NCBI GenBank assembly: GCA_016202645.1
Contig: JACQOF010000145.1
Coordinates: 1-25,957, forward strand
Reading direction: 5' to 3'
Length of the DNA: 25,957 nucleotides
Source of the DNA: a bacterium
GTDB lineage: Bacteria > Lindowbacteria > 2-12-FULL-62-27
This document shows, one piece after another, positions 6,746-25,957 of this stretch. Positions within the stretch are counted from its first letter, which is position 1, and every line of letters starts with the position of its first letter. Under the pieces are notes generated by a model, which was given only the letters and a program-made list of their open reading frames with translations, searched no databases and was not told where the DNA came from. The position numbers were made by a program, and so were the translations under genes.

Positions 6746-7314
6746 TTCTGTCTTGCCGAAAACCAGAAAACTCCGCGGTCGGTCACTACGCCGTCCAGCC
6801 GTTCGTCCCTGGAGGTATGGGGGATGTTCCGCGCCACCTGAACGTGAAACGCGACTCCAAGACGGATCCCCGTCCCGGAAGAGGAAAGCCAGCGGTCGAA
6901 ATATCCGCCGCCATGTCCGAGTCTCCAGCCCTTTGAGTCAACGCCAAGGCACGGAACCAAAATGAGGTCATTCCGGCGCGGCCTGCCCGCGCGGCGGCCC
7001 CGCACCGGTTCGAGAATTCGATATGTCCCGGGCCGGAGGCCATCCACGGATCGGATCACATGAAAGGTCATCCGCCCCCCGGCCACTTTCGGAAACGCGA
7101 TATCCGTGCGGCGGCGCAACAATTTCCGGTAGAGCGGCCAGAGGTCCGGCTCGCCGAACGTCGCCGCGAACGCGAAAATCCGTTTCGGCCCAAGGCCCCG
7201 GATCACCTTGGCCAGTCGCCCCCGAATCGCCCGGCCAAGCCCCCGGCGCCTCCTCGGGCTCAACTTCAGCATCCGCTGACGAAGCCGATCTCGCCAAACC
7301 TGCTTGCCATCCAT
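6742..7314 (-). CDS. 5-formyltetrahydrofolate cyclo-ligase
   Basis: The enzyme converts 5-formyl-THF to 5,10-methenyl-THF using ATP, salvaging folate one-carbon units in the cytoplasm. The key family block is visible at about 117-143: LILVPCLGVDSKGWRLGHGG followed by GYFDRWL. The C-terminal ERLDGVVTDRGV matches the usual D-x-VVT-E/D end. A basic N-terminal helix containing the first KxxxR pattern is also typical. I chose the ATG at 7314 (190 residues) over an upstream in-frame TTG at 7374, because 190 residues is the family length and the upstream extension is not family-like. It is the first gene of the minus-strand operon with vanZ-like, ispG and DUF4153. Confidence 0.9.
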   Translation of the reverse strand: MDGKQVWRDRLRQRMLKLSPRRRRGLGRAIRGRLAKVIRGLGPKRIFAFAATFGEPDLWPLYRKLLRRRTDIAFPKVAGGRMTFHVIRSVDGLRPGTYRILEPVRGRRAGRPRRNDLILVPCLGVDSKGWRLGHGGGYFDRWLSSSGTGIRLGVAFHVQVARNIPHTSRDERLDGVVTDRGVFWFSARQK

Positions 7315-7393
7315 TAGACCCGACCCTACGTCCAAACCGCCACTTCCGTCAACGGGCGAAACAAGAACTCGCAACTGTTAATCTGTTAGCCTC

Positions 7394-7420
7394 CGTCCCC
7401 TTTGGGGACCCTTTGGGGAC
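7394..7420. repeat. Tandem hairpin element in divergent promoter region
   Basis: GTCCCCTTTGGGGAC (7395-7409) is a 6-bp stem with a three-base loop. It is immediately followed by a second, overlapping copy, CCCTTTGGGGAC (7409-7420). It lies in the 143-base gap between the divergent cyclo-ligase and MBL-fold genes, which must also contain both promoters. I could not identify convincing -35/-10 boxes. The element could be an operator, but its form is also that of a generic dispersed palindrome. Confidence 0.55.
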
Positions 7421-7457
7421 GCTTGCAGGGCCCCTCTTCGTTAGGCTAGTCTGTCCA

Positions 7458-8903
7458 ATGACTAATATCCAAAGAGTCTTTTCGGCGCTTGGGATCCTGC
7501 TGATCTTGGGCTTGCTCGTTCTGCCCGGCGCGCTCGGCGACACCGAACCCGCCGAACGCTCCCATGCGCCTGATGACCTCCTGGTCGTCGTCATGGACGT
7601 CGGCCAGGGAGACGGGATTTTTATCCGGACGCCCGGCGGGAAAAATATTCTGATCGACGCCGGGCAGGACGCGCGGCGCGGGGTTCTGCCTTTTTTGCGG
7701 GCCCAGAACATCACCCGCATCGACGCGCTCGTGGCCAGTCATCCTCACGCGGATCACATGGGCGGCGCCGCCGCCGTCATGCGCTATGCGGACGTCCGGC
7801 AGGTCCTCGACAGCGGCAAAAATCACGCGACGCCGCAGTACGAGGAGTTTCTCTCAACCATTCGGGAATTGGAAATTCCATACCGCAACCCGCGAGCGGG
7901 CGAAAAACTGAACTGGGACCCGGCGCTTGACGTGATGGTTCTTCATCCCGACAACGCCGACTACGACAACGTGAACGACAATTCCATCGTCATCCGGGTC
8001 GCCTACAAGGGCGTTTCGTTTCTCTTTACCGGGGACGCCGAGGAGGAGGCCGAGGACGTGATCCTCGGAAGTTTCCGCGGGCGACTCAAGTCCGACGTTC
8101 TCAAGGTCCCGCACCACGGCAGCCGCACGTCATCGACGCCGGAATTTTTGGACGCCGTCCAGCCGAAATACGCCGTGATCTCCTGCGGCCATCAAAACAG
8201 TTTTCGCCACCCGAGACCCGAGACCCTGCGGAATCTGGAGCAGGTCGACGCGAAAATCATCCGAACGGACATCGAGGGCTACGTGATGTTCAAAACGGAT
8301 GGAAAGAAAATTCGAACGTATCAATCTCCCGTCCCGTTCCCCAAGATCGATCTTCCCGCCGGCAATCCCAGGCCCTTTGACGGGCCGGAATGGTCCGGGA
8401 AGGCCGCCGCGCGGGAAGAAGAAGCGGTTCTCGAAGCCGGACCCGGCGAAAACCTCTGGTCCCACATCGCCAACGCGCCCCGCTGGATGATGCCCGCGCC
8501 GCCGGGCGCATGGTCCTGCGGCGTGTCCGTGAATACCCAGCTCAGCCGAAAAACGGAATCCGGCCTGATTCTCTGGTCCGACGAGAAAAATTTCGTGATC
8601 TTCGGCCGCCAGGAGGAGCGTCTCACCGCGCTGACCGTCGTCAAAAACGGAAGGGTTTCCCTTGGCCCGGAACAATTGGTTTTCACCCCCGGCCGCATCG
8701 CCTTTCGAAAGACCGCCCGGTTTCTCGAAGCCCTCGCCTACGACGCCCCGGAAAAAACCTGGCGCGTTTTGTGGCGGCTGTCCAAAAAAGATATGCCCCG
8801 CATCGCCCGGGACGCGCGAATCGGCGTCTACGCCAAGTCCTGGGGGAACGGCGAAGCGGCCGCGACATTCACCGACTTTCGGATTGCCGCGGCGCTTCCG
8901 TGA
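7458..8903 (+). CDS. Secreted ComEC/Rec2-type MBL-fold hydrolase with C-terminal beta-sandwich domain
   Basis: From the ATG at 7458 the protein has 481 residues. Residues 1-27 are a signal peptide (hydrophobic 9-24). A metallo-beta-lactamase fold of the ComEC C-terminal type follows: MDVGQGDGIFI (46-56), HPHADHMGG (95-103), TGDAEEEAE (191-199), VPHHGSRTSS (217-226) and the HPRPE motif near 251-255. This family hydrolyses phosphodiester or related bonds with two metals, and in ComEC acts on DNA during uptake. Here there is no competence membrane domain. Residues about 325-481 form a separate beta-rich domain (SGLILWSDEKNFVIFGRQEE) resembling DUF1349 / concanavalin-like sandwiches. Frames extending further upstream cross the divergent gene and were rejected. 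The stop overlaps the next gene's start (GTGA). Confidence 0.82.
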   Translation: MTNIQRVFSALGILLILGLLVLPGALGDTEPAERSHAPDDLLVVVMDVGQGDGIFIRTPGGKNILIDAGQDARRGVLPFLRAQNITRIDALVASHPHADHMGGAAAVMRYADVRQVLDSGKNHATPQYEEFLSTIRELEIPYRNPRAGEKLNWDPALDVMVLHPDNADYDNVNDNSIVIRVAYKGVSFLFTGDAEEEAEDVILGSFRGRLKSDVLKVPHHGSRTSSTPEFLDAVQPKYAVISCGHQNSFRHPRPETLRNLEQVDAKIIRTDIEGYVMFKTDGKKIRTYQSPVPFPKIDLPAGNPRPFDGPEWSGKAAAREEEAVLEAGPGENLWSHIANAPRWMMPAPPGAWSCGVSVNTQLSRKTESGLILWSDEKNFVIFGRQEERLTALTVVKNGRVSLGPEQLVFTPGRIAFRKTARFLEALAYDAPEKTWRVLWRLSKKDMPRIARDARIGVYAKSWGNGEAAATFTDFRIAAALP

Positions 8904-10276
8904 AGCTGGACTTTTCACCCACGCCGCCTTACGCCCGAACCCGCCTGCCCGCTTTCCCCGGCTGGCTGGCCGCGCTCGGCCCCGGCATCGTTTGGATGGC
9001 CCTGGCGCAGGGTTCCGGAGAACTTATCTGGTGGCCATACCTGATGGCCAAATACGGTCTCGGATTTTTGTGGCTGCTTGTGCCCGCGTGCCTCTTACAG
9101 TTTCCGGTCACGTTCGAAATCGGCCGCTACACCGCGCTGACCGGAGAGAGCATCTGGCGCGGGTTTGTGCGCCTCCATCCCATCTTCGGATTTGTCCTTT
9201 GGATCCTCATGCTGGTTTCGTTTCTCTGGTTTGGCGCCTTCGCCTCCGCCGGCGGCACCGCCATCGCGGAGCTGACCGGATGGCCGGCCGGCCTGGCCGC
9301 GCGCGAGCGGTCATTATTCTGGGCGGTCTTCACCATCCTGGTCTTCGCGTTTGCGTTGATCACCCGAAAAAAAACCTACTCCCTGATCGAGCGCGTCATG
9401 TGGTTCGTCGCGATATCGACGGTTTTCGGGCTGGCCGTCAGTTGTCTCAACCCGGAAGTCCGCCCGGTCTGGAAGGAATTCACCCGGGCGATTTTTATTC
9501 CGGCGCCTCTGGCCCGCGCCTGGGACCCGGCGGACCTCGACAAGCTTCTCACGGCCCTGACGTTCGCGGGGCTCGGCGGGTTCTGGACGCTGTTTTACAG
9601 CTACTGGATTCTGGGCAAGGGCATCGGCTGTTGCGGCGCGGCCCCCGGCGTTCCGGCGGAAGGAGGGCCGGCCCTGGCCGAGACCGGCCGGAAATGGCGG
9701 AACTTCCTGGCCGCCGACGCGGGGATCGGCATTGTCGGAAACATTCTCACAACCCTGATGATGTGCCTTCTGGCCTACGCGATTCTGCATCCCAAGGGTC
9801 TCATGCCGGACGGCTGGACCCTGGCCGTCGAGCAGAGCCGATTTTTTGAACTCACGTGGGGCAACGCCGGCCGCGCGCTCTTTCTCCTGATCTCCGCGGC
9901 GTTCCTCGCCGACACGTGGCTTTCCACCGCCGACGCCGTCGCGCAGGTCCACATCGAAATGATCCGCCATTATTTTTTTCGGGGAGAACCGTACAATCAC
10001 CGCGCCTGGTACCGCGCCATGATCGTCCTCATCACCCTCATCACCGGTGCCACCATGCTGACGGCCCAGCCCGGCCGCCTCATTATCCTTTCCGCGCTCA
10101 TCGGATTCATCGGCACCGTCTTCTTCACTTTCGCTCTCCTCGTTCTCATCCATGGCCCCCTGAAACGCGCCCTGCCCGGACCCCTCAAACCCGGACGCGC
10201 CGCATTCGCATTCCTGACCCTCTCGGCCCTCGCCTATATGGCGTTGGCCGTCGCGTATCTCGCGCAGGACAGATAG
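8900..10276 (+). CDS. Nramp-family-related transporter lacking canonical metal-site motifs
   Basis: The GTG at 8900 overlaps the preceding stop, giving 458 residues and about 11 membrane helices. The opening GPGIVWMALAQGSGELIWWP and the following YGLGFLWLLVPACLLQFPVT align with TM1-TM2 of Nramp-like proteins (LeuT fold). In canonical Nramp Mn/Fe transporters TM1 carries DPGN and TM6 carries (A/C)MPH. Here the TM1 position reads QGSGE and the TM6 region reads AGLGGFWTLFYSYWILGKG, with no MPH. Substrate specificity therefore cannot be assumed to be manganese or iron; magnesium, another cation or an organic substrate are all open. An 8-kb-scale operon with the MBL gene is suggested by the overlap. 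The next gene starts 41 bases downstream. Confidence 0.75.
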   Translation: MKLDFSPTPPYARTRLPAFPGWLAALGPGIVWMALAQGSGELIWWPYLMAKYGLGFLWLLVPACLLQFPVTFEIGRYTALTGESIWRGFVRLHPIFGFVLWILMLVSFLWFGAFASAGGTAIAELTGWPAGLAARERSLFWAVFTILVFAFALITRKKTYSLIERVMWFVAISTVFGLAVSCLNPEVRPVWKEFTRAIFIPAPLARAWDPADLDKLLTALTFAGLGGFWTLFYSYWILGKGIGCCGAAPGVPAEGGPALAETGRKWRNFLAADAGIGIVGNILTTLMMCLLAYAILHPKGLMPDGWTLAVEQSRFFELTWGNAGRALFLLISAAFLADTWLSTADAVAQVHIEMIRHYFFRGEPYNHRAWYRAMIVLITLITGATMLTAQPGRLIILSALIGFIGTVFFTFALLVLIHGPLKRALPGPLKPGRAAFAFLTLSALAYMALAVAYLAQDR

Positions 10277-14711: not shown

Positions 14712-14779
14712 TTCGCCAGTCTAATTTGCGGATCAACATTTACAAGACCGGCGGAATATGCCAGAGTTGCGCCTCACAC

Positions 14780-16093
14780 ATGGAAATGATCAGAAGCTCA
14801 CCCCAAATGGCGTGGAGACGCGGGACCGCTATTTTTCTCGCGGCTCTGGCCGTCAGATTTCTGTATGTCTTCTGGATTGGCGATCCTGCGCCCGGCATCT
14901 ATTCCTTTGACTCGGCTCAGTACGATCAGATCGCGTGGAGCCTTGTCGAACGCCGGGAATACCGGGCCGAGGCCATACCCGGCTTCCCGGTCGAATTTTT
15001 CCAGGACCGCAATGTCGAAATTCCTCTGCGGAGCTTCAGAATCCCGGGCTACCCGTTTTTTCTCGCCGCGGTCTATACAGTCTTCGGCCGGTCCTTCACA
15101 GCCGTGGCGGTCGTTCAGATTCTGTTCAGCGCCCTGACGTGCGTTTTGATCTATCGCATCGGGCGCAGATGGTTGGGAGAAACGGCTGGCTGCTGGGCGG
15201 GTATTTTTTCGTGCGTCTATTACGGGCTCTTCCATCAGCCCGGATACATCCTCAGCGAGACCCTCTTCACGTTTCTCTTTTGCGGGTCCTTGCTCCTCTT
15301 CATATCCGCCGGCGCGCGCCGCCCCGCCTTGTTTCTTGCCGCGGTGACCCTCGCGCTTGCGACGCTCGTCCGGTCGACCTCCATGGTTTTTCCGGGGTTC
15401 ATCTGCCTTTGGGCGCTGATCAAGGAACCCTCGCGGCGGGGCCTTCAGGCCTGTCTCGTGATCCTGCTGGGATTTCTCATCCCGCTCACGCCGTGGCTGG
15501 TCAGAAATTACCGCATCCATCATCAGGTCCTGCTTAACTCCGACTTCGGCGTGGTCATCTGGCTCAGCAATAATCCCATTAACCTGAAAGGGCAGGGCGC
15601 CACAAATTCCACAGACATCGATATGGACAAATATGTCCACCTTCCGGAAGCTGAAAAAAACAGGGCGTTCGCGAAGGAGGGATTCGATTACGTCCGGAGC
15701 CTGTCGGCCGGCCGGTTTGCCCGGATCAGCCTTCTGAAAATCGCGTCCTTCCTGTATCCCTTTCTGCCGCATTACGACGTCACGTATGTCTGGATGATTC
15801 CTTTCTCGATATGGGGCATGGTTATCGGCATTCGCAACAGAGACCTCACCAGCGTCTTTCTGGTCTTCGCCATCCTCATGTTCCTCATTGGCATCGTCCT
15901 CACCGGCGGAACCCCTCGCTACCGGGACCCGATGTCCCCTCTGATCATTCTCCTCGGCGCGTCTGGCCTTCTGAATTTATACCGCGTCAGACCCGCGCTC
16001 TGCTCCGTCGCCCTCGTCGCCTGGACCTCCCTGAACGCGGCCATGTATTTCTATTCGGAACCCATCCGCCAGTTCGCCAAGTCGCTCCTCTGA
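14780..16093 (+). CDS. GT39/PMT-like (GT-C) membrane glycosyltransferase
   Basis: This protein has about 437 residues and about 10 to 11 hydrophobic segments. After the first helix comes an extracytoplasmic loop with FDSAQYDQIAWSLVERREY and then RSFRIPGYPFFLAAVY. This resembles the acidic catalytic loop and the R-x-P-x-Y-P/FLA pattern of ArnT/PMT-type lipid-linked sugar transferases. Such enzymes move a sugar from a polyprenyl carrier to lipid or protein on the outer face of the membrane. The acceptor is unknown; proximity to the heptose cassette makes envelope glycan work plausible. The start is uncertain: ATG at 14780, 14786 or 14807, or a TTG at 14726, none with a clear ribosome-binding site. 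Its stop lies 41 bases from the dif-like site. Confidence 0.8.
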   Translation: MEMIRSSPQMAWRRGTAIFLAALAVRFLYVFWIGDPAPGIYSFDSAQYDQIAWSLVERREYRAEAIPGFPVEFFQDRNVEIPLRSFRIPGYPFFLAAVYTVFGRSFTAVAVVQILFSALTCVLIYRIGRRWLGETAGCWAGIFSCVYYGLFHQPGYILSETLFTFLFCGSLLLFISAGARRPALFLAAVTLALATLVRSTSMVFPGFICLWALIKEPSRRGLQACLVILLGFLIPLTPWLVRNYRIHHQVLLNSDFGVVIWLSNNPINLKGQGATNSTDIDMDKYVHLPEAEKNRAFAKEGFDYVRSLSAGRFARISLLKIASFLYPFLPHYDVTYVWMIPFSIWGMVIGIRNRDLTSVFLVFAILMFLIGIVLTGGTPRYRDPMSPLIILLGASGLLNLYRVRPALCSVALVAWTSLNAAMYFYSEPIRQFAKSLL

Positions 16094-16134: not shown

Positions 16135-16162
16135 AGTTGACATAATATGCATTATGGGAAGT
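16135..16162 (-). other. dif: dif-like XerC/XerD recombination site
   Basis: Read on the minus strand, the site has an 11-bp XerC arm ACTTCCCATAA (16162-16152), a 6-bp centre TGCATA (16151-16146) and an 11-bp XerD arm TTATGTCAACT (16145-16135). Known bacterial dif sites have the same 11-6-11 layout. E. coli has CATAA-TGTATA-TTATGTTAAAT around the core, and B. subtilis starts ACTTCC and ends TTATGTAAACT. The arms are imperfect inverted repeats with the conserved CATAA/TTATG inner halves. It lies in an 85-base gap between two convergent stops, an expected place for a chromosome dimer resolution site. A phage or integrative element copy is possible, but no integrase or phage gene is nearby. Confidence 0.85.
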
Positions 16163-16178: not shown

Positions 16179-17093
16179 TCAGGCGCGGCGCGGGAGGATC
16201 AGCGAGGCGATGACGGACAGCGCGATGATCGATGCGATCACGGCGAGGGACACGCCGGTCGAGATGTGGACGGCGCCGGACAGGAGCATCTTGGCGCCGA
16301 CGAAGGTGAGGAGGACGGCGATGCCGAGTTTGAGGAACCGGAAGAGGCCCATGATTCCGGCGAGGAGGAAATAGAGGGCGCGAAGGCCCAGGATGGCGAA
16401 GATGTTTGACGTATAGATGATGAAGGTGTCCGTGCTGACGGCGAGGACGGCGGGGATCGAGTCGACCGCGAAGATCAGGTCGCTGGCTTCCACCACCAGG
16501 AGCGCCGCAAAGAGAGGCGTTGCGTGGAGACGGCCTTCCTGGCGCGCGAAAAATTCCGGGCCGTCGTGGCGGTGCAGGATCGGCATGAAATATTTGAACA
16601 GGCGAAGCGCGACGTTCCGCTCCGGGTCCATCTTCTGCTCCCGCTCCACCGCCATCCGCAGGCCCGTAAAGACCAGGACGGCGCCGAAGACGTAGATCAT
16701 CCAGTGGAACTTGTTGAGAAGCGCCACGCCCGCAAGGATGAAAAAGAGGCGCATGACCACGGCGCCGAGGATGCCCCAGTGCAAAATCCGCGGCTGGTAA
16801 ATGGCCGGAACGTTGAAGTATGAAAAAATCAGGATAAAGACAAACATGTTGTCCAAGCTGAGCGATTCCTCGATCAGGTAGGCCGTCAGAAACTCCAGGG
16901 CTTTTTCCTTCCCCATCAGCGCCCATATTCCGGCGTTGAACGAGAGCGCCAAGCCCACCCAGAAGCCGGTCCAAATCACAGCCTCCTTCAGGGCGATCAC
17001 GTGCGCGCGGCGCTGGAGGACGGTCAGATCGAAGACCATGACGGCGGGGACCACCGTGAGAAAAACCGTCCAGAGGATGGCGTGATCGGACAA
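16179..17093 (-). CDS. TerC/Alx-family membrane protein
   Basis: This 304-residue protein has about nine hydrophobic segments. The two family hallmarks are intact: YLIEESLSLDNMFVFILIFS (about 72-91) and VVEASDLIFAVDSIPAVLAV (about 200-219), which supply the intramembrane acidic residues. TerC/Alx proteins are linked to manganese export and to metalation of exported enzymes in some bacteria, and to tellurite resistance in others. The size and motif order fit Alx/TerC rather than the shorter YceF/YkoY types. The start appears to be a TTG at 17093, since the next ATG would cut the first helix. It lies 30 bases after the Crp-like regulator gene, so a yybP-ykoY manganese riboswitch cannot fit directly upstream. 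Confidence 0.9.
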   Translation of the reverse strand: MSDHAILWTVFLTVVPAVMVFDLTVLQRRAHVIALKEAVIWTGFWVGLALSFNAGIWALMGKEKALEFLTAYLIEESLSLDNMFVFILIFSYFNVPAIYQPRILHWGILGAVVMRLFFILAGVALLNKFHWMIYVFGAVLVFTGLRMAVEREQKMDPERNVALRLFKYFMPILHRHDGPEFFARQEGRLHATPLFAALLVVEASDLIFAVDSIPAVLAVSTDTFIIYTSNIFAILGLRALYFLLAGIMGLFRFLKLGIAVLLTFVGAKMLLSGAVHISTGVSLAVIASIIALSVIASLILPRRA

Positions 17094-17123: not shown

Positions 17124-17798
17124 TTACTTAATCCACTGCGCCAGTTTCTGGGAATCGCGGATCCAGAGGGTCCTCTCGCCGTCCACTTCGACGCTCCCCT
17201 CGTCCTGGAAAAGCTTCAGGGTCCGCGTCACGATCTCGCGGGTACTGCCGACCATGTCCGACAGTTCCTGGTGCGTGAGCCGGATGCGGATGCGCCAGGA
17301 CCCGCCTTCCTGCTCGCCGAATTTTTCGGCGAGGGACACGATGGTGTTGGCCAGCCGGGCCGGGACGTTGTCGAAGGTCAGGGACTTGATCTGCTCGTTG
17401 GCCTCCGTGAGGCGCTGGCAGAGGACTTCAATGATCCTCAAAGAAATGGCCGGGTTGTTCTGGAGATGGTCGAGAAAGACTTCACGCTTCAGCATGAGCA
17501 GGCGCGTTTCCTCGATGGCGATGGCCGAGGCCGACCGCGGAAGGTTGGTGACGATGGCCATTTCGCCGAAACATTCGCCCGAACCGAGGAGCGCCAGGGT
17601 CTTGACGCGGCCACGTTCCGTCGGCTGCTCGATTTTGATCAATCCCTCAACGATGATGTAGAGGACTTTCCCGAAGGTGCCCCGGAGAAAAACATACTCC
17701 CCGCGGCGAACGCTCCGCTCAATCGCCAGCTTGTGGATTTTTTTGAGGTCTTTCTCCTTCAGCCCCGCAAATATGTCGACCTTCTTTAAAACCGCCAT
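17124..17798 (-). CDS. Crp/Fnr-family transcriptional regulator
   Basis: This is a 224-residue regulator. Residues about 8-115 form a cyclic-nucleotide-binding fold whose phosphate-binding cassette GECFGEMAIVTNLPRSASAI (74-93) keeps the Glu and Arg-Ser that contact cNMP in CRP. A dimer helix at about 118-140 leads to the winged helix, with recognition HTH LTHQELSDMVGSTREIVTRT (174-193). There is no N-terminal Fnr cysteine cluster, so oxygen sensing by iron-sulfur is unlikely and cAMP-like or another small ligand is more plausible. ATG at 17798 follows GAGGGG. It lies 71 bases downstream of the histidine kinase and 30 bases upstream of the TerC gene, so the latter may be its partner or target. 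Confidence 0.92.
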   Translation of the reverse strand: MAVLKKVDIFAGLKEKDLKKIHKLAIERSVRRGEYVFLRGTFGKVLYIIVEGLIKIEQPTERGRVKTLALLGSGECFGEMAIVTNLPRSASAIAIEETRLLMLKREVFLDHLQNNPAISLRIIEVLCQRLTEANEQIKSLTFDNVPARLANTIVSLAEKFGEQEGGSWRIRIRLTHQELSDMVGSTREIVTRTLKLFQDEGSVEVDGERTLWIRDSQKLAQWIK

Positions 17799-17869: not shown

Positions 17870-20341
17870 TCAAGCGGAAACAACGCCCCGGAGGGCCTCG
17901 CGCGTTACGGGTTTCATGAGCACGTGGACGTTCGGCGGGAAACTCGAGCGCTTCTCCTCCGCCACCGCGCTGACCACCGCCACCGGGATGTTCGAAAGCG
18001 ACGGGTCCGACCCGAGTTCGCGGATGACTTCCCAGCCGTTTTTTTCCCGCATCATGAGATCGACCGTGATGAGGTCCGGGGCAGCCTCTCGCACAAGGCG
18101 GAGGCCCTGCTCGCCGGAGGCCGCGGAACGGACGGTGAGACCCAGTTCTTCGAGATAATGAATGAGAATGATGCGGGAGTCCGGATCGTCGTCGATGACG
18201 ACGGCGGATTTCCGGCGCGGCGCGCCACTCGCCCCCAACGCGTCATGGGGAAAATTCCGTCCTGGAATTTTCTGAGACTGGAGCGTTGGGGACAGGACAT
18301 CCCTGTCCGCGTCGGCCATCGTGTCCGGCGGGAGGACGACGCTGAAGGTCGATCCGCGGCCGACGGCGCTTTCAACGAGAAGCGGATAGCCCATCAGGTG
18401 GCACAGGGATTTTGAGATGGCCAGGCCAAGGCCGGTGCCGCCGTGCGGCCGGGATTCAGACCCGTCGGCCTGCTGGAACGCCTCGAAAATCATCTCCTGC
18501 TTCTCCTTCGGAATGCCGGGACCGGTGTCGATGACGTCGATGCGTTCCGGCCGGCGGCTTTCCTCGTCGGCCGTGACCTTGACCCGAACGGAACCCTTTT
18601 CAGTGAACTTGACGGCGTTTCCGATGAGATTGATGAGGACCTGTTTCAGCTTGCCGGCGTCGGTCATCATCGGCGCGAGGGGGCTCGGAAGATCGAGACC
18701 CAGTTTGACGTCGCGGCCGATGACCCGACCCTCCATCTGGCCGACAATGTCCCGAAGGAACGCGTCGATGTAAATCGGCTCGACTTGCAGGCGGAGCTCT
18801 CCCGCTTCCGCTTTGGAGAGGTCCAGAATCTGGTTGATGAGTCCAAGCAGATGCTGGGCGTTGTCCAGGATGCGGTCCAGATAGGCGAGGTCGCGCGACG
18901 GGATCGCGCCGGTTTTGTTTTCCTGGAGAATCCGGGCGAACCCGATGAGGGAATTCAGCGGCGTGCGAAGCTCGTGCGTCATGTTCGCCAAAAATTCGCT
19001 TTTCGCGCGGCTGGACCCCTGCGCCGCGTCGCGCGCGAGGAGCAGTTCCCTCTGAACGCGCCGGCGGGTGGTGATGTCGTGGAGAAACGCGTTGAACATG
19101 CACAGATCGCCGACACGGATAGGCCAGAGCGTCATTTCCACCGGGAATTCTCCGCCGTCCCGCCGGACCGCCGTGTATTCCATGCGGACGCCGAGGAGAA
19201 AACTCCGGCCGGTCTCCAGATAGTCCAGGATCTCCTTCAGGATCCGCTCCCGCTGTTTCGGCGGAAAAACCAGGTCGCAGAGGTTTCGGCCCAGGGCTTC
19301 CTGGCGGCTCCAGCCGAAGATCGATTCGGCCTGGCGGTTCCACTCGGTGATGGCGCAGGTCTCGTCAGCCGAGAGGTAGGCGTCGGAGGCCGTCTCCAGG
19401 ACGGAGCGAAGTTTCCGGGTCATGAATTCCGCCTGGGAGAGCGCGATCCGGCGGGTGGTCACGAGGGACCAGGTGACGCTGAAGAGTAGAAAACTCGCGA
19501 GGACGCCCGCGAGCAGGACCAACAGGGACTGGCTGTGGTCCGTGTCGTCGTCGAATTCCGGCCTCGACCGGAAATTCAGCATCCAGACCCGCTCGCCGAC
19601 TTCCAGAGGCATGGCATGCTGGAAAACGGCGGACCCGTCCGTCCCTCCGGCCGGCGGGACATCCAGCCCGTACAGGAGGGATTCCGGAGACATCTCGATG
19701 CCGTCGAAGACATCCAGGTCGACGTCCCTCACGTCCGTGCCGACGATCCACTCCAGCATGGCGGGGGCGTCGATGCGGGCGAAGACCCACCCGCGAGGGT
19801 AAACCGGCGCCAGAAAAAGAAACGCCTCTCCCAGCAGTTTTCCGCTGATCGTCGGGACCCCCCGGTCCCACGACAGGTCCGCGGCGATGCTCACGCTGGT
19901 TTCTTCGCGGATGTCGACGCCGATCAACCCGGCATATTTCGCCCGCGGTTCGATGAACTTGATCAGGGGCTTTCCCTCGGGCCCGCGCTCCACGTACCCC
20001 ACGGCGTCGATGCCCGGGTAATTTTTTTCAAAGTGGATCGACTCCAGATACGCCCGCCATTCGTCCTCAAGAACCTGACGGGAGGCCGCGAAAAGGCCGC
20101 GGGCGCCCAGAAGCATCTGCTCGTAAATCTGGATGCGGTCGCGGATGAGGGTCTTGATCTGGGCGACCCGGACATCAAACCTTGCCCCGGACTGGAGGCG
20201 CAGGTGAGACTCAGAGACCTGGTATCCCCAGACGGACGCGCCAAGCGAAACCAGCAGGATCGCCCAGGGAAACCAGTGAACGTATCGGGCCGCCGCGCCG
20301 GCCGGGGACTGCGCACTCGCGGAAGAATCCGGCTTCGCCAT
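17870..20341 (-). CDS. CHASE-PAS hybrid sensor histidine kinase with C-terminal receiver
   Basis: This is an 823-residue inner-membrane hybrid kinase. TM1 lies at about 22-40, a periplasmic CHASE ligand-binding domain at about 70-260 (with IDAVGYVERG), and TM2 at about 272-297. A PAS domain spans about 312-428. HisKA is at about 448-515 with the phospho-acceptor H456 in MTHELRTPLNS. HATPase spans about 560-670, with N575 in GNAVKF, DTGPGIP and GGTGLGLAISKSL. A REC domain lies at about 712-823 with the VIDDDPD acidic pocket, phospho-acceptor D761 in VDLMM and K810. All catalytic residues are present. The ATG at 20341 shares bases with the amidohydrolase stop (TGATG). An upstream TTG is also possible. 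The linker before REC is encoded by two perfect DNA hairpins (see 18250-18308). It lacks an HPt domain, so a separate phosphotransfer partner is expected. Confidence 0.93.
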   Translation of the reverse strand: MAKPDSSASAQSPAGAAARYVHWFPWAILLVSLGASVWGYQVSESHLRLQSGARFDVRVAQIKTLIRDRIQIYEQMLLGARGLFAASRQVLEDEWRAYLESIHFEKNYPGIDAVGYVERGPEGKPLIKFIEPRAKYAGLIGVDIREETSVSIAADLSWDRGVPTISGKLLGEAFLFLAPVYPRGWVFARIDAPAMLEWIVGTDVRDVDLDVFDGIEMSPESLLYGLDVPPAGGTDGSAVFQHAMPLEVGERVWMLNFRSRPEFDDDTDHSQSLLVLLAGVLASFLLFSVTWSLVTTRRIALSQAEFMTRKLRSVLETASDAYLSADETCAITEWNRQAESIFGWSRQEALGRNLCDLVFPPKQRERILKEILDYLETGRSFLLGVRMEYTAVRRDGGEFPVEMTLWPIRVGDLCMFNAFLHDITTRRRVQRELLLARDAAQGSSRAKSEFLANMTHELRTPLNSLIGFARILQENKTGAIPSRDLAYLDRILDNAQHLLGLINQILDLSKAEAGELRLQVEPIYIDAFLRDIVGQMEGRVIGRDVKLGLDLPSPLAPMMTDAGKLKQVLINLIGNAVKFTEKGSVRVKVTADEESRRPERIDVIDTGPGIPKEKQEMIFEAFQQADGSESRPHGGTGLGLAISKSLCHLMGYPLLVESAVGRGSTFSVVLPPDTMADADRDVLSPTLQSQKIPGRNFPHDALGASGAPRRKSAVVIDDDPDSRIILIHYLEELGLTVRSAASGEQGLRLVREAAPDLITVDLMMREKNGWEVIRELGSDPSLSNIPVAVVSAVAEEKRSSFPPNVHVLMKPVTREALRGVVSA
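18250..18308. repeat. Two adjacent palindromes inside the kinase linker
   Basis: A 9-bp perfect stem pairs 18250-18258 (GAAAATTCC) with 18264-18272 (GGAATTTTC) around five bases. A 7-bp perfect stem pairs 18290-18296 (GGACAGG) with 18302-18308 (CCTGTCC) around five bases. Both lie wholly inside the kinase reading frame and encode about 20 linker residues (about DRDVLSPTLQSQKIPGRNF) between the ATPase and receiver domains. Such paired hairpins are typical of intergenic repeats, not coding sequence. Confidence 0.8.
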
Positions 20342-21534
20342 CAAACTGACACCCGATTACCGCCGATGAAGCGCGCGAGGATGCGCCGTTCGGCGCGGCC
20401 CTTCAACAGATTTTCGTATGGATCAGACACAGTACCAACGCCGCGCACCAGCAGAAAATCCGCATACGCCCCCGGGGCGATGCGGCCGACTCGGCCGCTC
20501 CAGAAACGCTCGCCGGGCGACAACGTGGCGGCGTCGATCAGCCATCGGGCCGGCGCGTTCCATAAACGGCGGGCCCGGCGGATTTCGGCGAAGAGGTTCA
20601 GGTCCGTGTTGGACGCGAGCGAGTCCGTTCCGAGCAGGATCCGCACCCCGGCGGCCCGGAGACGCCGGGCGCCGCGCGCGGAAAAACCGAACCAGGCCAT
20701 CGATCCCGGACAGACGGCAACCGCCATGTCACGGTTGGAAAGAAGCCGCGCTTCTTCTGCTGTCACGTCGTTCACATGCACCGCCGTGAGGCCGTGCCTG
20801 AGCAGGCGCAGTCGGTCCAAGTGAGACAGCACTCTCCGAGCGGGGACCGAGCGGGGACGAATGCCGAGGCCGGCGTAGAGTTCGGCGAAAGACCCACCGC
20901 CTGTCAGAAAATAATCGGCCTCGTCGGGACTTTCGCCGATGTGCATCGACAGCGCGGCCCCGGGATGGCGGTCCCACCAGCCGGCGATTCGGATCAGGTT
21001 CTCGTCCGAGACCGAGTACGGCGCGTGGGGACTGAACGCGCGGGCGGCGCGCGGCAGGGTAGGTTGGCGATCTAGGCCCACAAATTCTGGAAGGACCGTC
21101 GTCCGAAGCATGCGCGCGGCGCGAAGGGACGCGGTAAAACTGCACGTGTCGGCGACCGACGTCACGCCATTTTCAAGCAGTCGCCGCTCGCCCCGGCGGA
21201 TGCCCGCGACAATCCGTTTTGCCGTCAGCCGCTTCTTCTGCTGAACGACCCGCCGGATCCACCCCGTAAACCGGCCGCGAAAGCCGCGACGGAACCGGAA
21301 CGACGAATCCGTCAGTTCCAAATGCGCATGCGCGTTGACCAGGCCGGGCATCAGGATCGAGTCCGGGAGATCGGCGAGAACGTCCGGATCCATCCGCAAA
21401 ATTTCCGACCGCGTCCCGGCCGCGACGATCCGGCCGCCGCGCCACGCCACGCCGCCGTCGCGAATGGGAAGGCCGGCCGGGCGGAGCACCCAGCCGGCGA
21501 GGAGAGCCTTGAGGCGGTGATTGTCTGACATCAT
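20341..21534 (-). CDS. Metal-dependent amidohydrolase (SsnA / MtaD / aminofutalosine-deaminase-like group)
   Basis: From the ATG at 21534, preceded by AGGAGAGG, the protein has 397 residues. The amidohydrolase fold is complete: HAH zinc pair at 69 and 71 in PGLVNAHAHLE, SPHAPYS with H170, MHIGES with H198 and E201, VHVND with H253, and LGTDSLASNTD with catalytic D304. This set is typical of the deaminase/chlorohydrolase branch acting on purine-like or guanidine-type amines. The opening NAHAHLEL plus a GWIRR stretch resembles aminofutalosine deaminase-like proteins of the menaquinone route. No other mqn gene is nearby, so this is only a suggestion. Coupled by TGATG to the histidine kinase downstream. 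An inverted repeat lies just upstream of its Shine-Dalgarno. Confidence 0.85.
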   Translation of the reverse strand: MMSDNHRLKALLAGWVLRPAGLPIRDGGVAWRGGRIVAAGTRSEILRMDPDVLADLPDSILMPGLVNAHAHLELTDSSFRFRRGFRGRFTGWIRRVVQQKKRLTAKRIVAGIRRGERRLLENGVTSVADTCSFTASLRAARMLRTTVLPEFVGLDRQPTLPRAARAFSPHAPYSVSDENLIRIAGWWDRHPGAALSMHIGESPDEADYFLTGGGSFAELYAGLGIRPRSVPARRVLSHLDRLRLLRHGLTAVHVNDVTAEEARLLSNRDMAVAVCPGSMAWFGFSARGARRLRAAGVRILLGTDSLASNTDLNLFAEIRRARRLWNAPARWLIDAATLSPGERFWSGRVGRIAPGAYADFLLVRGVGTVSDPYENLLKGRAERRILARFIGGNRVSV

Positions 21535-21565
21535 GCGTCCGCCTCTCCTATTCCGTTGGCCGTTC

Positions 21566-21642
21566 CTCATTGGTGCAATGATGAAATGACCATTGATCAG
21601 GACCTCGCGAGCATTGCACCAATCTGTCATTGCACCAATGAG
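21566..21642. repeat. 16-bp inverted repeat with a third partial copy
   Basis: CTCATTGGTGCAATGA (21566-21581) is repeated in perfect inverted orientation as TCATTGCACCAATGAG (21627-21642). A third copy of its core, GCATTGCACCAAT, lies at 21611-21623. It fills most of the 124-base gap between the giant surface-protein stop and the amidohydrolase start. No T-run follows on the minus strand, so a Rho-independent terminator is not clear. It resembles the 554-643 element in design (short word plus inverse copies) but not in sequence. Confidence 0.8.
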
Positions 21643-21658
21643 AAATTATCAACCGATT

Positions 21659-24600
21659 CTAGCGCACGATGGCAAGCTTGTCCACCAGCGTCGTCCCGCC
21701 AGACTCGAGCTTGTAGATGTAGACGCCCGACCCGAGCTTCTGGCCGTGCTTGTTCGTGGTGTCCCACGTGAGGGTGTTCGATCCCGCAACGCCGGAGCCT
21801 TTCAGTTCCTTTACGAGCTTGCCGCCCATGTCGAAAATTTTCAGGCTGACGTCCGCGGCGGACGGGAGGTTGTACTTGAAGGTCATGCTCCCGGTCGCAT
21901 CATCGGGGCCGGGGTTCGGGTAGATGAAGGTGTTTTCCTTCGAGAGCGGCGCGGCCAGGAATGGGGCGAGGTAGTCGGGGAGGCCCACGGCCAAGGTCAG
22001 GGGCAGGGAGAAAGGGAGAGAGGGAGAAAGGGAGAGAGGCAGGGACTCAATCTTGCGCAAGTTCACGGGGCCCTGGGGGGCGCCGATCAGATACGCCTCG
22101 TAGCCATGGGGCAAATTCGACACGTTGTCCCACGCCAGCGTGACAGGATCGCCCACGTCGGCCGCGACGAGAACGTCCCACGCCCGGCCCAGCGCCGCGC
22201 CGCCAATCGGCTCCGCGAAATGAGCCGCCAGCCACGAATTCTCCTCCCCCCTTGAGGGGGAGGCTGGGAGGGGGGATGCCTGCTTTCTCACCGCCACCGC
22301 CACATATCCGCCCGCCGCCGCCGGAGGCTCATACACCGCCGCAAGCGCGGCAGCCTGCGGCGACGGCATCACCCCCACATAATTCTGCGCGTCCGTCTTG
22401 CCCCCGCCCGACGCCATGATCTGTATCGCCCAGTCGTTCTCTGTCCCTGTTCTGTTCTGCTCCTTGTAGTATGCCGACAGAAGGGGTTTCTCCGTTTCTC
22501 CGTTTCTCCGTCTCTCCGTTTCATCCAAATACCCAGGCGCTTGCTGCAGTATCACGCTCGCCGTCTCCGCCACCTCCGCCGGATCCGGAAATACCCACAG
22601 TGTGCACGAGACAAGCGCCTTGACCCAGAACCCGACCATCGGCTTCATCTGAACGCCCGGGACCGTCGACGTGCCGCTCGTGTTCGCCCCGCCCGGCGCG
22701 GCCAGCGTGTTCGGGCCCCACTGGTACTGCGAGCCGTCGTACCAGTAGAGGATTTTGCTCAAGACACCGCCCGCGTGCGCGGAGTCCATCGAGATCATGT
22801 TTAGAAGATGCGTGGCCGTCGGCGTGTCGGTGATGCCGAGGCCCGTGTCGACCTTCACCGATTTTTGCCAGTCGACGTAGAAATACTGCCCGGAACCGAT
22901 CTGATTCCAGCCGTTGTCGCCGAGCCGGAGTGGGATGTTCACCGTGTCGAATCCGGCCGATCCGTGCGCGCCCTCGTCGATCACCCACCGTTTGGCCGCG
23001 CCGCTGATCTGTTTGGCCCAGAACCCGCGGCCGCGCTCGATGGCAGTCGGCTCGTGGAATTTGGTCGTGACGCCGCTGATCGAGGAATTGACGCCCTTGT
23101 CCTCCCGCCACTCGTAGAGTTTGTACTGGCCCGCGCCGCCCATGTCCGCGCCGACCACGGTCGCGGGGTCGGTCGCAAGCATCTTTTTGTTCGGCGCCAT
23201 CATCCGCCACGTCGAGTCGGCGATGTCCCGGCCGTCGGCGTAGGCGGTGAAGGCCACATATTTTGACGTGGCGCGCGCGATCGTGGCCTGCACGCGGAAC
23301 ACGTCGCCGGTCGTGCCGACCCCAACCGTCTCCGAAACGTACCCGCTTGCGTCTGTCAACGCCGTCATCGAGGTCACGCCCGCCGTGTCTCCCAACCGCG
23401 CCCCGCTCGCCGACAGCGCCGCGCCGGTCGGATGCGTGATCGAAAACGTCACCGTCTCCGACGACATCGGACCGCCGGCCAAGTTGACCACGCGCACCCG
23501 AATCGGCAGGCCCGCTCCCGGCGCGCCCAGACCGTGGTTGCCCGACACGATCGAGATCGTCTCCGGCGAATTGGCAATCGACGTCGCAAACACGGTGTCG
23601 GTGAACCAGCTCTGGTTGACGAACGACGAACCATCGAACGACGAAAGACGATAATAATACGCCGCCCCGTCGTTCGCGCCGGTGTCGACCCAGGACGCGC
23701 CGCTGGTGGTGAACGCGAGCACGTTGGCCCAGTGGGTCGTGTCAGGCGTGTTCCGCAGGCGGTAAATCTTGACCCCCGCAAACCCCACCGCTCCGCCGTT
23801 CGTCTCCTCATTCGTCGTCGGATTCGTCCACGACACCGTGATCTGCCCGGGCGTGGCGGCGTTCAGCGTCACCCCGCCGGGCGCCGCGGGCGCGGTCGTG
23901 TCGGCGCCGGCGGCGGTGTCGACGGGGCCGAGGCGGTAGGGGCGGAACGTGCTGGCCGTATCAGAAAATCCAGCGCCAATCTTTGTTTCATCCGTCGATC
24001 CAAACCAATTACTCGTCAAGGTTTGGACGCTGCCGAGTAGACTATTGCGGAGATTGTTGACACTATTCCCAACAATATTGTTTTTCGTGATGGAATTATT
24101 GAACCCATAGATCAAAACACCTGTGTCATTCGCGGTAATTTCATTTTGAAAAATGCTATGTGTATCACCAGTGACCACGATTCCAGCTTGGATATTGTTC
24201 GAGACCCGATTGGCAAAAACAACGTTCTTGCTCGAACTCGAATTGCCTATAAAAATGCCGTACACATTATTAAAGGTCGCCGTATTATTGCTTACAAAGT
24301 TATTTGAACAGGCGAACAGGTAAATCCCATACCCGTTGTTCGAGTTGGCAACATTGCCTGTCACCGTGTTGTTGGCGGCACTCGTATTTACTTCGATGCC
24401 GTTGGCCCAATTCCCAATGGCCGTGTTGTTGGCAATCGTATTATTTGAACTGGACGCACCCAGTACGATTCCGGATCCGTTGGCCGAACCATTTACAGTA
24501 TTGTTTGTCACAGAGACATTGGAACCCGCAATTACAATGCCAGAATACCAATTGTCTCCGGCGTTGTTGCCACTAATCGTATCGTTGTTAGAACCAGACA

Positions 24601-25957
24601 ATAGGTAGACGCCATATCTTCCGTTCTTTGTAATACTGTCGCTTTCCACCTTGGAGCCACTCACATTGACAAGATGAATCCCGTCATACGCCCCGGTCAC
24701 GCCGAGACTCTTGATCGTCAGCCCCGTCTGCGTGTCCGCATAGATGCCGTACAGCCCGATTGTCGAATTCGCCCCCGGCGGGTCGATCACGGTCGCGCCG
24801 GAGTCCTTGCCAATGAGACTGATGTAGTCGGTGTCGATGACGACGGTTTCGGAGTAGAGGCCAGCGTCGATGAATATCGTGTCGCCGGATTTGGACTGCG
24901 AGAGGGCTTTGGTGATCGTCGCGTAGGGAAGGGATGCGCCGCCGTTGTTCGTCAGAAGATTGTCCGACCCGGCGGCGGTTGTGAACGAGTCGCCGGTCGT
25001 GGACGCGTCATTCACGTACCACTTGCCGCTCGTGTTCGGCGACGGCGTCACTGCGAAGGTCTCCTCCGGCGCCCACGCGCTTCGCATCATGCCGCCGTCC
25101 ACCGCCTGCACCGACCAGTAGTACGTCCCTACCGGGAGCGTCCGCACCAGCGCCGCCGACGTGTCGTTCTGGACGTTGCCGAGGATGGTATTGCCTACCG
25201 AGTCGGCGCTGTTCGTGTCTGCGGCGAAAACGTCTACCTTGCCGGGCGCACTCCCCACGCGCAGGTTGTAGGTGATGCCGGTATCGGGCGTTGTGTCTCC
25301 TGTAACTTTTGACCAGCGGAACACCACCGTGTCGCCCTGCGCGAACGACGCGCCTTTGGGCGCATTGGCTGAAGGCGCGGCAGGACGCACGTTTGTCGGG
25401 GCAATGGCATCGTTCCGGTAGAGGATCAATCGCTTGTTTGTGCCCCCATCAAGTGATCCTGACGCAGCAAGGTCGAGGTCGCCGTCGTTGTCGTAATCGC
25501 CCCATTGGATGGAACTCGCATCGATCCCCGCATTGACGCCCATAGGCTCCGCCGCATTCGTGAAACTGCCTCCCCCGTTGTTCCGATAGATGATAAGGCG
25601 CCTGTTTGCGACGCCATCAATTCCCGAAATCGCCAGATCAAGGTCTCCATCGTTGTCGTAATCACCCCACTGGACAGAACTATTATACACGCCCGCGCCG
25701 GCGCCCATCGGCTGGGACGCGGTAGTGAAACTACCGCCGCTGTTTTGATAGACAACAAGTCTGGCGTTTGTGCCGTCATATCCAGACACCGCAAGGTCAA
25801 GATCGCCGTCGTTGTAGTAATCGCCCCATTGAATGGAACCGGAAGCCACACCCGCACCGGCGCCCATAGGCTCTGCCGCATTCGTGAAACTGCCGTCGCC
25901 ATTGTTGCGGTAGATAATCAATCGCTCGTTTAAGCCTCCATCATATCCAGAGACTGC
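21659..25957 (-). CDS. Giant secreted surface protein: FG-GAP/VCBS repeats, Fn3, beta-helix, Ig-like and type-IX-like C-terminal tail (5' part outside window)
   Basis: The frame is open to the window edge, so the N-terminus is missing; 1432 residues are visible. In order from the edge: at least three FG-GAP/VCBS-type repeats of 53-55 residues with the D-x-D-x-D-G-D-L-D calcium-like motif (WGDYDNDGDLDLA; bases about 25957-25420), then an Fn3-like module (about 25410-25040). A right-handed beta-helix of NosD/PbH1 type with N-rich turns follows (about 25020-23950), then Fn3 (about 23900-23590) and an Ig/invasin-like domain (about 23580-23260). A module with WRMMAPN, RGRGFWAK and GWNQIG is at about 23220-22560. 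The C-terminus (about 21940-21659) has FIYPNPGPDDATG, GSGVYIYKLESGG and DKLAIVR, matching type IX secretion sorting / FlgD-like tails. It is likely exported to the cell surface and may bind polysaccharide or other cells. Three repeat-derived segments interrupt its C-terminal third. Confidence 0.88.
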   Translation of the reverse strand, partial: AVSGYDGGLNERLIIYRNNGDGSFTNAAEPMGAGAGVASGSIQWGDYYNDGDLDLAVSGYDGTNARLVVYQNSGGSFTTASQPMGAGAGVYNSSVQWGDYDNDGDLDLAISGIDGVANRRLIIYRNNGGGSFTNAAEPMGVNAGIDASSIQWGDYDNDGDLDLAASGSLDGGTNKRLILYRNDAIAPTNVRPAAPSANAPKGASFAQGDTVVFRWSKVTGDTTPDTGITYNLRVGSAPGKVDVFAADTNSADSVGNTILGNVQNDTSAALVRTLPVGTYYWSVQAVDGGMMRSAWAPEETFAVTPSPNTSGKWYVNDASTTGDSFTTAAGSDNLLTNNGGASLPYATITKALSQSKSGDTIFIDAGLYSETVVIDTDYISLIGKDSGATVIDPPGANSTIGLYGIYADTQTGLTIKSLGVTGAYDGIHLVNVSGSKVESDSITKNGRYGVYLLSGSNNDTISGNNAGDNWYSGIVIAGSNVSVTNNTVNGSANGSGIVLGASSSNNTIANNTAIGNWANGIEVNTSAANNTVTGNVANSNNGYGIYLFACSNNFVSNNTATFNNVYGIFIGNSSSSKNVVFANRVSNNIQAGIVVTGDTHSIFQNEITANDTGVLIYGFNNSITKNNIVGNSVNNLRNSLLGSVQTLTSNWFGSTDETKIGAGFSDTASTFRPYRLGPVDTAAGADTTAPAAPGGVTLNAATPGQITVSWTNPTTNEETNGGAVGFAGVKIYRLRNTPDTTHWANVLAFTTSGASWVDTGANDGAAYYYRLSSFDGSSFVNQSWFTDTVFATSIANSPETISIVSGNHGLGAPGAGLPIRVRVVNLAGGPMSSETVTFSITHPTGAALSASGARLGDTAGVTSMTALTDASGYVSETVGVGTTGDVFRVQATIARATSKYVAFTAYADGRDIADSTWRMMAPNKKMLATDPATVVGADMGGAGQYKLYEWREDKGVNSSISGVTTKFHEPTAIERGRGFWAKQISGAAKRWVIDEGAHGSAGFDTVNIPLRLGDNGWNQIGSGQYFYVDWQKSVKVDTGLGITDTPTATHLLNMISMDSAHAGGVLSKILYWYDGSQYQWGPNTLAAPGGANTSGTSTVPGVQMKPMVGFWVKALVSCTLWVFPDPAEVAETASVILQQAPGYLDETERRRNGETEKPLLSAYYKEQNRTGTENDWAIQIMASGGGKTDAQNYVGVMPSPQAAALAAVYEPPAAAGGYVAVAVRKQASPLPASPSRGEENSWLAAHFAEPIGGAALGRAWDVLVAADVGDPVTLAWDNVSNLPHGYEAYLIGAPQGPVNLRKIESLPLSLSPSLPFSLPLTLAVGLPDYLAPFLAAPLSKENTFIYPNPGPDDATGSMTFKYNLPSAADVSLKIFDMGGKLVKELKGSGVAGSNTLTWDTTNKHGQKLGSGVYIYKLESGGTTLVDKLAIVR
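22005..22036. repeat. In-frame 2 x 16-bp tandem repeat
   Basis: AGGGAGAAAGGGAGAG occurs twice, exactly and head to tail (22005-22020 and 22021-22036), flanked by AGGCAGGG-like degenerate copies to about 22044. It is inside the giant surface protein and encodes an S/P/L run (ESLPLSLSPSLPFSLPL). A 16-base unit is not a multiple of three, so the two copies are read in different frames, yet the gene stays open. Confidence 0.85.
22241..22278. repeat. In-frame GC-rich palindromic element
   Basis: CCTCCCCC (22243-22250) pairs with GGGGGAGG (22256-22263) around a five-base loop, and is followed by CTGGGAGGGGGGATGCC. It lies in the surface-protein reading frame and encodes KQASPLPASPSRGEEN. Elements of this form are familiar as dispersed intergenic palindromes in several bacterial genomes. 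Confidence 0.75.
22487..22522. repeat. In-frame 8-bp tandem repeat (TTTCTCCG)
   Basis: TTTCTCCG occurs three times exactly (22487-22510), then once with one change (22511-22518), then TTTC. On the coding strand it encodes the charged run ETERRRNGETEKP in the surface protein. The unit is not a multiple of three. Confidence 0.85.
25428..25957 (-). repeat. FG-GAP/VCBS DNA repeats of about 159-165 bp
   Basis: The same DNA word (CGTTGTCGTAATCGCC and close variants) recurs at 25486, 25651 and 25810, giving spacings of 165 and 159 bases. Neighbouring words such as CCATAGGCTC and GCATTCGTGAAACTGCC also recur. A fourth unit begins at the window edge. High DNA identity suggests recent duplication of repeat units within the gene. 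Confidence 0.85.

Follow-up and report, generated by a model that had tools for sequence, protein, structure and literature searches.

A very probable dif site in a Candidatus Lindowbacteria genome and its apparent occupation by a tailless provirus in a relative

Bacteria separate joined sister chromosomes at a spot known as dif. The question raised by a 28-bp sequence lying between two convergent genes of an uncultured bacterium of the candidate phylum Candidatus Lindowbacteria is whether it is such a site, and whether it marks the terminus of replication. The window (the whole stretch of DNA analyzed, 25,957 bp) is contig C123 of a draft genome of 2.92 Mb in 146 contigs that is 82% complete. 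It was compared with two genomes of the same family, also Candidatus Lindowbacteria (G001, MFPR01000001.1; G002, JAHFCY010000222.1). The original prediction, made from the letters of the window, was of a dif-like site with an 11-6-11 layout and near-consensus arms, and the 28-mer AGTTGACATAATATGCATTATGGGAAGT was confirmed at exactly positions 16135 to 16162 of the forward strand. The features of the locus are as follows.

14726 to 16093, plus strand: membrane glycosyltransferase (PMT_2), convergent neighbor, from Pfam
16135 to 16162, minus strand: very probable dif site, 28 bp, ACTTCCCATAA TGCATA TTATGTCAACT
16135 to 16145, minus strand: putative XerD-binding arm, TTATGTCAACT; the relatives differ at 0 to 1 positions
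16146 to 16151, minus strand: central hexamer TGCATA, which varies by genome (CGCATA in G001, TATGCA in G002)
16152 to 16162, minus strand: putative XerC-binding arm, assigned from its likeness to known dif sites, ACTTCCCATAA; the three family genomes agree at every position
16179 to 17093, minus strand: TerC-family membrane protein, convergent neighbor, from Pfam
17124 to 17798, minus strand: Crp/Fnr-type regulator, with a homologue near dif in both relatives
20341 to 21630, minus strand: amidohydrolase; in both relatives a homologue adjoins the Crp/Fnr gene near dif

The arms, which may be assigned to XerC and XerD by their likeness to known dif sites, match the dif of Bacillus subtilis (sequence from PMC3025954) at 19 of the 22 arm positions and differ from it at 3. 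The Firmicutes dif profile also fits several other phyla (PMC3025954). Positions 7 to 12 (CATAAT) and 17 to 22 (ATTATG) of the 28-mer are perfectly complementary, so that the inner arms are palindromic, and 18 of the 28 positions are symmetric. The G+C content is 32%, compared to 61% for the window. As had been predicted, the site lies between convergent genes: the plus-strand glycosyltransferase gene ends at 16093, leaving 41 bp before the 28-mer, and the minus-strand TerC gene ends at 16179, 16 bp beyond it. With these gaps on either side, the 28-mer is intergenic and noncoding.

The window holds only one match when up to 3 mismatches are allowed, and 100 dinucleotide shuffles of the window yielded zero matches. 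A relaxed, degenerate dif pattern likewise matched this locus alone in the 82% complete draft genome, the single copy that would be anticipated of a dif site. The same held in the family, where exactly one matching site was detected per relative (ACTTCCCATAACGCATATTATGTAAACT in G001 and ACTTCCCATAATATGCATTATGTCAACT in G002), with 0 and 1 arm differences; a reversed control pattern had a low match rate. Across the three genomes the arms were kept, the hexamer was variable, and the flanks had diverged. Two of the checks suggested with the original prediction, on copy number and on related genomes, were thereby borne out. When 84,980 genomes were scanned for exact matches to both arms, with A or C allowed at one position, 27 records were returned, many of which belong to Bacillota. 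Outside the family, one genome (G022) has five dif-like sites on five contigs (L007, L018, L019, L020, and L021), near position 1501, with similar flanks in two or three, as if within a short dispersed repeat.

Gene order around the site was partly shared among the three genomes. In the genome under study, the order is amidohydrolase, histidine kinase, Crp/Fnr, TerC, dif, and glycosyltransferase; in G002, it is amidohydrolase, Crp/Fnr, BirA, dif, and oligopeptide-transport ATPases; and in G001, it is amidohydrolase, Crp/Fnr, BirA, an 11-kb element, dif, and an OppF-type ATPase. (Gene names in the relatives were assigned by eye from translations, except for BirA and Crp/Fnr of G002.) Thus, the amidohydrolase-Crp/Fnr flank is common to three genera, whereas the genes nearest dif turn over, with BirA beside dif in the two relatives. 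The prediction that there is no integrase nearby was borne out in the window, where the Pfam-checked open reading frames are host-type genes and none was seen to encode an integrase, and on its contig, which has no tyrosine recombinase matches. Elsewhere in the window, a mechanically called open reading frame at 8390 to 10276 overlaps the end of a metallo-hydrolase-like one (7023 to 8903); the transporter-like protein that it encodes probably starts further in. The long minus-strand protein at 21659 to 25957, which is truncated by the contig end, has repeats that resemble FG-GAP and right-handed parallel beta-helix types, as well as a sorting-type tail at its C terminus, as judged by eye.

The recombinases that act on dif were also looked for, and both are encoded. 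The matches to PF00589 in the genome include two Xer-type proteins. XerD, on C85, has 296 amino acids and scores 331 bits, above the equivalog cutoff, and its gene adjoins one for tRNA nucleotidyltransferase. The other, on C100, has 299 amino acids, is encoded directly after trmFO, and has XerC as its best match, with a score (332.1 bits) that falls just under the XerC equivalog cutoff of 335.15 bits. A gamma domain of FtsK is encoded on C73.

The strongest functional evidence came from G001, in which the orthologous site is occupied. A second dif-like site on the G001 contig, at 147352 (ACTTCCCATAACGCATAAAGTGTAAACT), lies in direct orientation 11,011 bp before the dif at 158363, and these direct repeats bound an 11.0-kb insertion (G001:C1:147352-158390, equivalent to L090:7352-18390) with the host dif retained at one junction. 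In G002 the orthologous site is empty and has the same neighbors, BirA and OppF. The two repeats are identical in the XerC arm and hexamer and differ in the XerD arm alone, which fits integration through the XerC side with the full dif at the right junction. CTX- and VGJ-type elements integrate through the XerC side (review, PMC5357621).

The element encodes a P2-type double jelly-roll capsid protein (P2_N, 7.6e-26; P2_C, 1.3e-35) that matches P2 of PM2 in the PDB (2vvf, 2.5e-11) and has a Vibrio phage as its nearest annotated phage record, at 41% identity. A tblastn search of phage records with this capsid found 66, and a viral_contigs scan with it found no relative. A packaging ATPase of 204 amino acids was recognized by phrog_2666 (5.6e-17) and had no Pfam match. 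Also encoded are a TrwC-type relaxase, a lectin-like protein, a lytic transglycosylase, and a RecD/Pif1-like helicase. There were no tyrosine recombinase matches within 147352 to 158390 and no recognized integrase among the main open reading frames of the element that were scanned; neither the genome under study nor G002 has PM2-type capsid genes. Given its PM2-type capsid and its lack of a recognized integrase, the element probably represents a tailless provirus that the XerCD of its host integrated. It is quite likely that, in Candidatus Lindowbacteria, an 11-kb PM2-type tailless virus with a TrwC relaxase but without a recognized integrase docks at dif, integrates by means of host XerCD, and in doing so rebuilds a working dif.

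Mobile elements use dif-like sites, and one occupies the orthologous site in G001, so that the 28-mer might be thought a remnant of a mobile-element attachment site or a plasmid-type pdif instead of a chromosomal dif. This seems very unlikely, because the site is single copy, has no mobile genes nearby, lies in a host-type neighborhood, and has an empty ortholog in G002. Still less credible is a chance palindrome, a terminator, or a regulator-binding site: the position between two convergent genes could suit a terminator, but the arms are conserved across genera with diverging flanks and are kept in three genomes while the hexamer varies freely, shuffled sequences give no matches, and an AT-rich 28-mer without a GC stem or T-run led us to reject a terminator. 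The single copy, the conservation within the family, the presence of xerC, xerD, and ftsK, and the mobile element integrated at the orthologous site of a relative support the identity of the 28-mer well, and there is little doubt that it is the dif of this Lindowbacteria genome.

Whether dif also marks the replication terminus, as the original prediction had proposed as a possibility, was addressed in G001, and gene orientation supported the proposal while GC skew did not. On the 292-kb contig of G001 (292,560 bp), with the element left out and genes predicted with a simple custom codon model, the best convergent gene-orientation breakpoint was at the gene next to dif, with a score of 0.50 of coding bases and a run-shuffle P value of about 0.01; the same score was 0.31 and 0.11 on two other large G001 contigs. 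No cumulative GC-skew maximum was found at dif in G001, and in the window the cumulative skew has a local minimum near 16 to 17 kb, opposite to what is expected of a terminus. GC skew is patchy on three large G001 contigs (C1, C20, and C28), with several sign changes in each, and this repeated switching makes strand composition a poor guide to the direction of replication in this lineage. The candidates for FtsK-orienting motifs, GGGNAGGG and GAGAAGGG, did not show convergent polarity, and the octamers with the strongest polarity look like codon-usage words that track gene direction. In these fragmented assemblies of unordered contigs, the dnaA gene is on contigs other than that of dif. A position of dif at the replication terminus is partly supported and likely.

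By analogy with known systems, we infer binding of XerC and XerD at the 28-mer, activation by FtsK, and a terminus position in this genome. XerC would bind ACTTCCCATAA and XerD would bind TTATGTCAACT; FtsK would join the two dif sites of a chromosome dimer at the septum and activate XerD; and strand exchanges, one to either side of the central hexamer, would then resolve the dimer. In the relative, the PM2-like tailless provirus would have integrated at the same site via host XerCD, with a usable dif left at one of the junctions. The comparison of occupied and empty orthologous sites in the relatives suggests indirectly, at the level of sequence, that XerCD may recombine the site, and the apparent insertion of a virus at the dif of a relative suggests that the site works.

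The site shares with the dif of B. subtilis and the Firmicutes-type profile (PMC3025954) its layout, 19 of 22 arm bases (compared with B. subtilis), complementary inner arms, and single copy, but differs in its host and in lacking a clear tie to a peak in GC skew. In common with the proteobacterial dif/XerCD systems (PMC2731167), it is noncoding, low in G+C, and palindromic, with a conserved XerD arm and with both XerC and XerD encoded; however, its XerC arm follows the Firmicutes type, and its terminus position is that of a candidate. As a dif of this well-known kind, it is ordinary and well formed; its host is a little-studied uncultured bacterium. No earlier dif sequence for Candidatus Lindowbacteria was found in the literature searched. 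An exact sequence is now provided for this candidate phylum and offers a candidate for the terminus wherever GC skew is not informative.

Vibrio and alphaproteobacteria are known to carry tailless prophages at dif-like sites (PMC9966536, PMC11630473, and PMC10589892), and in Legionellales a mobile element was likewise used to reveal dif (PMC9765430). The G001 element resembles Asemoviridae NO16 and the Jorvik-like tailless prophages (PMC9966536, PMC10589892, and PMC11630473) in its length of about 11 kb, its PM2-type P2 capsid and packaging ATPase, its lack of a recognized integrase, and the dif-type repeats at both ends. It differs from them in the phylum of its host, in its TrwC-type relaxase and RecD/Pif1-like helicase, and in its capsid, whose identity to the closest phage record is about 41%. 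Since such prophages have already been described, what the element adds is a further case from a new host phylum, and it extends dif-integrating tailless viruses, which in the reports found come from proteobacteria, to a distant uncultured phylum.
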